From: Lachnospiraceae bacterium
GTDB lineage: Bacteria; Bacillota; Clostridia; Lachnospirales; Lachnospiraceae
Direction of reading: 5' to 3'
Assembly: GCA_030524705.1 (NCBI GenBank)
Contig: JAUNGD010000020.1
Location: forward strand, 1-54,972
DNA length: 54,972 bases
The position numbers were made by a program, and so were the translations under genes. The notes beneath the pieces were generated by a model, which searched no databases, was not told where the DNA came from, and saw only the letters and a list, made by a program, of their open reading frames with translations. Shown one piece after another: positions 19,763-23,386 of this stretch; position 1 is the first letter of the stretch; each line of letters opens with the position of its first letter.

Positions 19763-19795
19763 TAAAAAGAAAGAAGCCGTCTCCCGGACAGCTTC
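19763..19795 (-). terminator. Intrinsic terminator of the Pyr4/PaxB-like gene
   Basis: GAAGC-GTCC stem around a GGGA loop (19773-19795), followed on the minus strand by a T-rich run. Confidence 0.7.
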
Positions 19796-19831
19796 TTCTC
19801 TTTCTCTGAACCACATTTTTTTCTAATCCAC

Positions 19832-20455
19832 TCAGACGCCTTCTTTTTCGCTCTTCTTTGCTCTGTACAGCAAGGCGATATAGATGAGATCGTAAACCGT
19901 ACACAGCACGCCGCAGGCCAGTACCACATAATTCGTAGACATAATTCCCATCGTGATGGTGGGCGCCAGTGTTCCGATCCATTTTGCTACGGCCAGCAGC
20001 ATGCTCTGGCCCTTTGTGTTCCCCCGCTTTACCAGCATATGGATAAATGCTATGGACATAAGCAGATTCTGTGGGAAGGCAGAGTACTGTGCGGAGAGAT
20101 GTCCTGCCAGTCCGAACTCCTTCACAAACGCCAGCTGTACTACCACCATCGAGGCCACGCCGAGGATCGTCCAGGCGTAAAATACGCTGTCGCTTTTTGC
20201 TTCATGGCTCTTCTTTCCATATTTAAAATACAATATAAGGATCACAATATCCAGACAGAACCACAGGAGGTTCACGATTGCCTGTACTCCGCCTGTGCTC
20301 ATATCGGTAACTGTATAAATTCCTTCCCATGCAATGTTCAGAGCCAGCGCCCAAAACGGCATTGCATACGTTTTGTCCCGGATCGCAAGCCGAATGCACT
20401 CTTCGTACACAATGCACCATCCGATCCCGCTCAATAAAGTTAAAAACATTTCCAT
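19832..20455 (-). CDS. Membrane protein resembling Pyr4/PaxB transmembrane terpene cyclases
   Basis: About 207 residues with seven predicted membrane helices. The first helix and the following loop (GIGWCIVYEECIRLAIRDKT, then YAMPFWALALNIAWEGIY) align well with my memory of the fungal Pyr4/PaxB family, including the conserved NIAWE with its acidic residue. Other family-like stretches are NLLWFCLDIVIL (second acidic residue) and RGNTKGQSMLLAVAKWIGT. The annotated frame could start at 20482, but the AAGGAG site is correctly placed for the ATG at 20455. It stands alone with its own promoter and terminator; no prenyltransferase, epoxidase or terpene gene is nearby. Membership is likely; the bacterial function is unknown. 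Confidence 0.75.
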   Translation of the reverse strand: MEMFLTLLSGIGWCIVYEECIRLAIRDKTYAMPFWALALNIAWEGIYTVTDMSTGGVQAIVNLLWFCLDIVILILYFKYGKKSHEAKSDSVFYAWTILGVASMVVVQLAFVKEFGLAGHLSAQYSAFPQNLLMSIAFIHMLVKRGNTKGQSMLLAVAKWIGTLAPTITMGIMSTNYVVLACGVLCTVYDLIYIALLYRAKKSEKEGV

Positions 20456-20499
20456 TTCCTGCATCTCCTTTTTCTTTGACATCTGTCAAGGTTTGTTTT

Positions 20500-20528
20500 A
20501 TCATACCGAAAGAAAAGGGATATGTCAA
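20500..20528 (-). promoter_or_regulatory. Promoter of the Pyr4/PaxB-like gene
   Basis: TTGACA (20523-20528) and TATGAT (20500-20505) on the minus strand, 17 bp apart, about 50 bases before the ATG at 20455. Confidence 0.7.
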
Positions 20529-20636
20529 CTGGTACGGAGCAACTTGTACACACCGGAAGCAGTGTCAATGTTTTCACCGAGACAAACATATTGTAATATC
20601 CATTGACATTTTCCTTCAACGTGTTCTGAGAAACGC

Positions 20637-21368
20637 CTACTCCTCTGACAAATTCTCAGTGGCAAACAGATGAATAGCAGCTTCCATGGCGGCATCGTCG
20701 TAATCTGCTGCAATGGCTCCCACGTTCCAGTATGCATATGCGCCCTCGAACCAGCTTTCCAAATCTGACGCATCTTCGGAATAGCGGAATTCCAGGTGAT
20801 ACGTTTCTTCCATAGTATCCGGCGCGAAGGAGAAGTAAGTAAACTGACCGGAATTTTCATCCTCACTTTGATAGAGGAAGAAGCCGTTTTCGTCTGTATC
20901 CACGTAATCATATACATGGCTAAACACCTCGTTCCCCTCTTCATCCGTACCGCTGATGGTGTCCCCCTGGACTGTAAATTCGCTGACGCCGCCCAGGAAA
21001 TAACAGTCAAAGGCAATGCCCTCCGATCCGTCGCCGTACTTGTCAATTGCCTCCTGTCCGTAGATATTTGCCATGCACATTCCCAGGAGCTTGTCTGTGG
21101 CAGCATCGGCGTTTTCCTCCCCTACGAGGGCGCTGGTTTCCTTCAACCAAATATCCCGGTATTCTTCCCTGTCCATTTCCGGGAACAGTTCAATATAACT
21201 GCCCTGTATCTTACTGAGAAAGTCTGTTTCTTCCTGATTTGCGGTTTCTTCCAGGTTCTCCGTCTCTTCCACATTCTGAGCTTCTTCAGCCATAGCGCAG
21301 AAGCTGCTGCCAGCTACAGAAAGTGCCAGTGTACTGCCCAGTAATAAAGCCAAATGTTTCTTCTTCAT
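20637..21368 (-). CDS. Secreted protein with ZinT/YodA-like domain
   Basis: 243 residues with a clear signal peptide (MKKKHLALLLGSTLALSVAG, cleavage probably after CAMA). A short acidic Glu-rich stretch follows. From about residue 55 on, the protein recalls the ZinT/YodA zinc-binding lipocalin-like fold: EFTVQGDTISGTDEEGNEV, then TYHLEFRYSEDASDLESWF and a closing helix AAMEAAIHLFATENL. Only one His of the expected metal-binding cluster is present at the usual place, so zinc binding is doubtful. The Cys in the signal region is not a lipobox. A DtxR-like palindrome lies in its leader, which fits a metal-linked role. Moderate to low confidence in the family. Confidence 0.55.
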   Translation of the reverse strand: MKKKHLALLLGSTLALSVAGSSFCAMAEEAQNVEETENLEETANQEETDFLSKIQGSYIELFPEMDREEYRDIWLKETSALVGEENADAATDKLLGMCMANIYGQEAIDKYGDGSEGIAFDCYFLGGVSEFTVQGDTISGTDEEGNEVFSHVYDYVDTDENGFFLYQSEDENSGQFTYFSFAPDTMEETYHLEFRYSEDASDLESWFEGAYAYWNVGAIAADYDDAAMEAAIHLFATENLSEE

Positions 21369-22471: not shown

Positions 22472-23338
22472 CTATTCTATCCAGCCTGCCCCCAATCTGC
22501 TCAGAATTTCATTCGAAATAGTGCCCGCCGTATGTGCAAATTCACTGGCCGTAATCTGCTCATTTCCGCATTTTCCTATAAAGACAGCCTCATCCCCCGG
22601 AGCTGTACCAGGAATCTCAGATAGATCTACCATCAGCTGATCCATGCAGATCCGCCCAACCACAGGAGCTTTATGTCCCTTGATCAGGGCAAATCCTTTA
22701 TTGGACAGTTCACGGGGAATCCCATCCGCATATCCAATGGAAACGGCTGCAATTTTCATTTCCCTCGCTGCTGTATAGGTCTGCCCATATCCCACAGCTT
22801 CCCCCGTATGCAACTGCTTTACACATTCTATCCTCGCCTTCAGTGACAGCACCGGCTTCAGGTTTACAGCAGCGGCGGTTTTGTCATAGGGTGAACTTAA
22901 TGCGCCGTAGAGCGCAATTCCAGGCCGGACATAATGTTTGTATGTAAATCCTTTTTCCGACTCAGAAATCCCGTCTGATACACATAAGTGAGAAAATACT
23001 CCTGTGATCTGCAGCTGCCTGGCATAGCAAAAATCAATTACAGTCTGAGTCAGACTGTACTTCCAAAGCTCCTGGAATTGCTCTGGGAAGGTATATCCCA
23101 AAACTAATATTCTTCCGGTGATCCCCGCTTCTCTCAGTTCAATCGCCTCCCCTACAGAGGCCACACAAAAGTCCTGAACGCCCATATCCTGCAAGGCCCG
23201 GCCGATCAGAACTGCTCCGTGTCCATAGGCATTTGCCTTCACCGCCGGCATGACCATACATTCTGATGGTAAAAATTGTTTTAACTGCCGCAAATTATAA
23301 GACAGATTCGCCGGCTTAAGTTCAATCCATGCCCGCAT
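22472..23338 (-). pseudogene. Alanine racemase with two internal deletions
   Basis: PLP-dependent racemase-like protein, 288 residues from the ATG at 23338, against about 370 in the family. The PLP lysine (MPAVKANAYGHG), EAVGYGQTY, SIGYADGIPR and GRICMDQLMVDL are present. Two blocks of about 40 residues each are missing in frame: one between YARQLQ and ITGVFSHL (where KIDTGMHRLG-like residues normally sit) and one between GFTYKH and YVRPGIALYG. The well-placed GGAGGG ribosome binding site points to an ATG in a different frame, so a frameshift near the start is possible. It lies directly after a ddl remnant. Probably inactive; a functional short form is not excluded. Confidence 0.7.
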
Positions 23339-23386
23339 AGTTTTTACGCATGATCTTCCCTCCAAAGGCTCAATACAGCCCCGCCT

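Follow-up and report, generated by a model that had tools for sequence, protein, structure and literature searches.

What does a terpene cyclase homologue do in a bacterium whose scanned neighbouring genes offer no terpenoid pathway? The question is raised by a single minus-strand gene on contig JAUNGD010000020.1 (assembly GCA_030524705.1) of a Lachnospiraceae bacterium, of which the whole stretch of 54,972 nucleotides, positions 1 to 54,972, was analysed and is here called the window. The answer favoured here, to which we give roughly even odds (about 0.5), is that the gene product is a ligand-induced, stand-alone isoprenoid cyclase that starts its reaction with a proton; its activity, its substrate and the part played by a ferredoxin would be as proposed below. 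The observations on which this answer draws are the family of the protein, the residues that matter in the characterised cyclase DmtA1, the linkage to TetR-family regulators in gut relatives, a palindrome shared between promoters, and missing pathway genes.

The gene is an intact open frame, as follows.

19832 to 20482, minus strand: Pyr4-type transmembrane terpene cyclase homologue, 216 amino acids from the first ATG (open frame, Pfam, alignment of relatives, structure model).

The frame holds the motifs NIAWE (with E53) and LLWFCLD (with D78), and its product matches the Pfam family PF25129 (Pyr4-TMTC) with 109.7 bits and an E-value of 2.2e-31. The cut-off is 27, and membership in the Pyr4/PaxB family, which a first reading made from the sequence alone (the sequence-only reading) had proposed, is thus upheld by a wide margin in the hidden Markov model check; as far as its sequence can tell, the protein is a genuine member of the Pyr4/DmtA type. 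No other Pfam family matched at E up to 1, the NCBIfam scan of the protein returned no family, a PF25129 search of 14 control genomes gave no match (0/14), and the window protein is the sole PF25129 member found in its own genome. The true start is probably at residue 10, near position 20455, as suggested by the many relatives that begin at the corresponding methionine. Compared with seven relatives, the gene shows proportions of nonsynonymous differences (pN) of 0.10-0.20 and of synonymous differences (pS) of 0.74-0.85, the latter near saturation, which means that the cyclase homologue is under purifying selection. The upper end of the feature had been placed at 20528, which lies beyond the frame (ending at 20482) and is the first base of the TTGACA box of a promoter-like site described below.

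When the window protein is aligned with 21 other sequences, which share 44-83% identity with it, W22, Y26, N49, W52, E53, D78, D198 and Y201 are invariant across all 22; the acids among these, E53, D78 and D198, belong to buried helices, and the invariant residues include neither cysteine nor histidine. D78 stays invariant in a wider sequence set, and N49 is replaced by serine in the Streptomyces clavuligerus homologue. For DmtA1, a drimentine cyclase of Streptomyces, the published study reports that changes at W29, Y33, N56, W59, E60, D214 and Y217 abolish or lower activity, describes E60 and D214 as conserved among membrane cyclases such as Pyr4, and names D94 and E133 as also important and unique to DmtA1-3 (PMC6173783). 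Matched by motif and spacing, those seven residues correspond to W22, Y26, N49, W52, E53, D198 and Y201 of the window protein; E60 and D214 are equated with E53 and D198 because the spacings of 4, 23, 3, 1 and 3 residues are identical in the two proteins. D198 sits in the segment CTVYDLIYI of helix 7. The two acidic motifs stressed by the sequence-only reading therefore fare differently: NIAWE keeps its place through E53, whereas LLWFCLD contributes an invariant residue, D78, but not the catalytic partner, which maps to D198. D78 was also considered as the counterpart of DmtA1 D94 and dropped, D94 being described as unique to DmtA1-3 while D78 is invariant in the wide set.

The helix pattern of fungal cyclases that had been recognised in the sequence is borne out by a confident predicted model, with seven helices of 21-34 residues each, a mean predicted local distance difference test score (pLDDT) of 90.0 and a predicted template modelling score (pTM) of 0.84, in agreement with the family. 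The models match the fold of SWEET transporters, cystinosin and the KDEL receptor (PQ-loop, TOG superfamily). Sequence comparisons did not return these proteins: PDB searches with the single sequence and with a profile gave no relative, and no PQ-loop, SWEET or KDEL-receptor signature appeared in Pfam at E up to 1 or in the profile search against PDB. An internal repeat sought with hhalign was not significant (P 0.33 and 0.14), the sole segment found pairing D78 with D198. Across 199 genomes of the phylum, SemiSWEET genes (PF03083) were matched twice, once over the cut-off, which is too rarely for a profile comparison.

Such a fold also suits the main rival explanation, in which the protein would be a TetR-controlled exporter or carrier of a hydrophobic compound, similar to SWEET or PQ-loop proteins, with buried acids that couple transport to protons. 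Divergent pairs of a TetR gene and a membrane protein gene are typical of efflux systems, a TetR paralogue encoded in the same genome faces an MMPL exporter gene, and FUSC_2 genes follow the cyclase gene in two carrier genomes (G050 and G103). We nevertheless consider transport an unlikely function, though the foremost among the alternatives, since the conserved residues are those that DmtA1 needs for cyclisation, and since the family that Pfam assigns is one of cyclases, no transporter family being matched at E up to 1.

The cyclase reading gains its regulatory side from the relatives. A set of 39 distinct loci, several of them from close relatives, was compared after contig duplicates (L001, L005, L008, L011), two additional records from Streptomyces clavuligerus (H5, H6) and the weakly matching loci L012, L058 and L059 had been dropped. 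A gene of one TetR family adjoins the cyclase gene in 28 of the 39 (in one, L088, the cyclase frame is truncated), and the two genes are divergent in 26 of these; in one the TetR gene lies upstream on the same strand and overlaps the cyclase gene (Streptomyces sp. NBC_00564), and in one it lies downstream (L089). Five of six regulators reached a TetR cut-off in a domain scan, that of L010 falling just below both cut-offs. A profile of the regulators gave 33 matches in the 535 kb examined, a figure that does not measure the background of all TetR genes because the profile was built from these very regulators. TetR and cyclase distances correlate (r 0.857, reached by none of 5000 permutations) over 24 loci with one clear pair; the window, L022, L026, the additional cyclase copy in L023 and the loci found on plasmids or at the level of the class were excluded, and joint inheritance by itself would produce such a correlation too. 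On the plasmid of Streptomyces sp. NBC_00564 (L046, 7366-8678) the overlapping TetR and cyclase genes have nearby a gene annotated as hydroxyneurosporene dehydrogenase, whose weak AsqO_C/Diels-Alderase matches lie below the cut-off.

The window itself lacks the TetR gene, and the elements that surround the cyclase gene are these.

20500 to 20528, minus strand: promoter-like site of the cyclase gene, TTGACA-17-TATGAT, with 11/12 consensus matches, aligned with the same element in relatives.
20476 to 20489, no strand assigned: palindrome TTGACATCTGTCAA, of the form TTGACA-NN-TGTCAA, presumed TetR operator (site counts, alignment), located between the -10 box and the ribosome-binding site.
20541 to 20570 approximately, plus strand: remains of the promoter and start region of a divergent regulator, where the similarity to relatives ends (alignment).
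19770 to 19798, minus strand: terminator-like hairpin of 12 pairs with a T-rich tail, downstream of the cyclase gene, a consensus match only.

The position of the TetR gene in relatives is occupied in the window by a gene (20637-21368) for a protein of 243 amino acids whose start resembles a signal peptide and which reaches the cut-off of no Pfam family. The genome does encode a TetR orthologue, 73% identical to that of locus L013, on another contig (C50). The loss of the adjacent regulator could mean that the window copy is a relict that does nothing useful, and decay of this kind is seen elsewhere, with an internal stop in the homologue of L032 and a mere remnant beside a TetR gene in G789. 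Such a fate is very improbable for the window gene, which retains an intact frame, ribosome-binding site, promoter-like site and palindrome and whose substitutions are strongly biased to synonymous sites, while the TetR orthologue and a copy of the palindrome survive on the other contig.

Across the 39 loci the palindrome is exact in 14 and has at most one mismatch in 21, the more distant loci being without it. The 3.87 Mb of the window's genome contain three exact copies, against none of the reversed control pattern: one at the cyclase gene, one on C50 between the TetR orthologue and a ferredoxin gene, and one on contig C64, about 2 kb from the TetR paralogue that faces the MMPL exporter gene (L045, 4835-9411), where no clear target was seen. 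One palindrome is hence common to the cyclase promoter and the TetR/ferredoxin promoter, and the cyclase gene and the TetR-ferredoxin pair, on separate contigs, have the same promoter layout; a divergent unit may have been duplicated, each copy then losing one half. Only exact matches are informative, because at up to two mismatches the window gives two matches, as many as shuffled sequences. The 23 genomes to which the named loci belong contain 20 exact palindromes, spread over 16 genomes, versus 5 for the control pattern; 12 are sited at the cyclase promoter, another 2 at TetR promoters (between the TetR and ferredoxin genes in G781, and between the TetR gene and the cyclase remnant in G789) and 6 elsewhere.

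The ferredoxin recurs at the cyclase gene itself. In seven loci (L016, L024, L025, L027, L028, L030 and L031) a ferredoxin gene starts 4-8 bases before the end of the cyclase gene, and in L013 a degenerate ferredoxin copy lies at that end; the other 31 of the 39 loci have no ferredoxin gene directly downstream. The ferredoxin encoded on C50, under the same palindrome as the cyclase, has 72 amino acids and two clusters. Judged by eye, the module's ferredoxin has an amphipathic-looking stretch as its first 15 residues. The gene linkage ties the module to a reduction. Another redox hint is seen in genome G271 (L091, 5346-6715), where the next gene after that for the TetR protein is reductase-like (NAD_binding_1, 23.8 bits, cut-off 22). 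The protein might accordingly be thought a ferredoxin-dependent membrane enzyme of another kind, for example a reductase subunit, that has kept the cyclase scaffold, as the overlapping genes of the seven loci and the flavin-reductase-like gene of G271 would allow; the absence of cysteine and histidine from the invariant residues and the many loci without a directly downstream ferredoxin gene make this improbable.

The distribution of the gene is sporadic. Within the Lachnospiraceae, PF25129 matches 12 of 397 genomes, 11 of them over the cut-off, with no match in the one listed congener (G152); at the level of the class it matches 7 of 391 genomes, two of these weakly. Among GTDB contigs, a search turned up 23 named loci, most of them from metagenome-assembled genomes of Lachnospiraceae or Eubacteriales and from the isolate Hespellia stercorisuis (L025), the others from assemblies labelled Muribaculaceae, Anaerolineae and Bacteroidetes, labels that can err in such genomes. 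Plasmids of Streptomyces and Nostoc carry homologues at 31-45% identity (6 records), 13 pattern matches in viral contigs included no relative, and phage records gave no match. This pattern suggests that the cyclase gene is accessory and mobile. One contig labelled Muribaculaceae (L023, 8022-9313) carries two tandem cyclase homologues that overlap by 4 bases, each about half identical, or slightly more, to that of the window.

Genes that would supply such an enzyme with a conventional substrate were largely not found. Among the 24 of 56 window frames scanned with Pfam, which encode sugar metabolism, transport, regulation and repair, there is no prenyl-transfer, terpene or oxygenase family. The genome, which is 88% complete, yielded no UbiA and one polyprenyl synthase, on another contig; UbiA is also absent in 14 of 18 other carriers, including the single-contig genomes G271 and G560, and the squalene/phytoene synthase family is absent in 10 of 10 carriers, the window's genome included. 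In G050, a member of the same family, the genes for the cyclase, CrtC, FUSC_2 and Caroten_synth share a strand and lie in a row, with a TetR gene diverging from them (L092, 4153-8339); the arrangement looks like an operon for the tailoring of isoprenoids in a relative among the Lachnospiraceae. A UbiA of G050 lies on another contig. In G103 a FUSC_2 gene directly follows the cyclase gene. The earlier claim that such proteins have no association with terpenoid pathways therefore applies to the scanned surroundings of the window gene but not to G050. Taken together, these scans and the neighbours in G050 and G103 make isoprenoid chemistry plausible and a standard meroterpenoid pathway not.

The same evidence bears on the idea that the enzyme performs one step of a dispersed endogenous pathway, regulated by membrane stress, on the cell's own polyprenyl lipids (undecaprenyl or farnesyl, for example). 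The polyprenyl synthase means that prenyl substrates exist, and the CrtC and Caroten_synth neighbours in G050 point the same way, but presence in 12 of 397 family genomes is odd for housekeeping lipid chemistry and neither UbiA nor the squalene/phytoene synthase family was found, which leaves this idea doubtful, a little more so than export.

Other neighbours are recorded here as observed. On a plasmid of Nostoc sp. C057 (L047, 5992-7812) the cyclase homologue adjoins a gene annotated as isopentenyl phosphate kinase; a ThuA-like gene and two SDR-like genes, named by eye, lie near the cyclase gene in L019, L020, L022 and L024; and the window encodes an alanine racemase (22472-23365) that looks internally shortened, its N-terminal domain match covering no more than positions 4-104 of 220 when the C-terminal domain begins.

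The ligand, substrate, direction of regulation, role of the ferredoxin and benefit that we infer for the cyclase would fit together as follows. The TetR protein would bind the palindrome and release it when a hydrophobic isoprenoid from the diet, the host or another microbe binds to the regulator. The cyclase homologue would then draw the isoprenoid out of the membrane and into the cavity that its helix bundle, PQ-loop-like in shape, encloses; there E53, supported by Y26, N49 and W52, may protonate a double bond (or an epoxide), and the resulting cation would close one or more rings with the help of D198 and Y201. A linked reduction, and not the cyclisation itself, would be the task of the small ferredoxin, and the enzyme's purpose may be to detoxify or tailor a foreign isoprenoid rather than to make meroterpenoids. 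Judging from its kin, the bacterium is presumably an anaerobe, and protonation of a double bond is for this reason likelier than the opening of a self-made epoxide. For DmtA1 and ZigF, too, the proposed opening step of cyclisation is the protonation of a double bond (PMC6173783, PMC13307353).

Several points weigh against this reading. No TetR gene adjoins the cyclase gene in 11 of the 39 loci (the window, L018, L026, L033, L035, L085-L087 and L047-L049); L026 retains a TetR remnant of 71 amino acids, L035 lies at a contig edge and cannot be judged, and L085-L087 and L047-L049 are more distant homologues. UbiA is present in 4 of the 18 other carriers, and pathway genes that seem missing may be unsampled because the window's genome is no more than 88% complete. 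The structural likeness of the models is to transporters and receptors, not to enzymes, and no ferredoxin requirement is known for cyclases. A wider proposal is more tentative, possible but clearly less likely than the cyclase reading itself: that sensor-controlled stand-alone cyclases with a dedicated ferredoxin form a new module for the oxygen-free cyclisation of foreign isoprenoids in anaerobic gut bacteria, and that the whole Pyr4/PaxB family arose on the PQ-loop/SWEET/KDEL-receptor scaffold, its cavity being a converted transporter or receptor cavity.

Known systems resemble the window protein in part. DmtA1, XiaE/XiaH and ZigF of Streptomyces and Micromonospora likewise have seven helices and about 220-250 amino acids and share, by motif and spacing, the catalytic set W, Y, N-x-x-W-E and D-x-x-Y, but they act inside biosynthetic clusters with a prenyltransferase, whereas the window protein stands alone and its gut relatives are mostly TetR-linked, in some cases ferredoxin-linked, and come from genomes mostly without UbiA. 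The fungal Pyr4/PaxB meroterpenoid cyclases belong to the same Pfam family, PF25129, but are distant in sequence, and epoxy-prenyl meroterpenoids are not known to be made by the Lachnospiraceae bacterium. Divergent TetR-efflux pairs have the same layout as the gut cyclase loci, with a palindrome between promoter and start; in the gut module, however, the controlled membrane protein is a terpene cyclase homologue, sometimes with a ferredoxin, and not a known pump. The KDEL receptor, SWEET and cystinosin would share the predicted fold, but they are receptors and transporters, not enzymes, and have no detectable sequence relation to the window protein. According to one report, the fungal members cyclise epoxy-prenyl meroterpenoids made with oxygen, and a survey of 1107 bacterial Pyr4-like sequences kept 264 with terpenoid genes nearby (PMC13307353); the gut group, as a rule without terpenoid neighbours, would be among the sequences set aside, if it was included at all. 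Among the open-access matches listed, there was no report on TetR-linked or gut Pyr4 homologues and none tying the Pyr4 family to the PQ-loop/SWEET fold, though an earlier mention of the latter is possible.

Characterised members of the family, in the literature consulted here, are steps of biosynthetic clusters. The gut proteins form a coherent group of cyclase homologues without terpenoid neighbours, yet accompanied by a linked regulator, by a site resembling an operator and by a likely partner in redox chemistry, and their substrate is therefore searchable, since the compound that lifts the TetR protein is probably identical with the substrate or near to it. A PQ-loop-like fold, as predicted, would provide a structural frame for fungal and actinomycete members, for which PDB searches by sequence gave no relative, and a testable account of how this cyclase family originated; if true, a predicted shape like that of sugar transporters and cargo receptors could show where the enzyme family came from.
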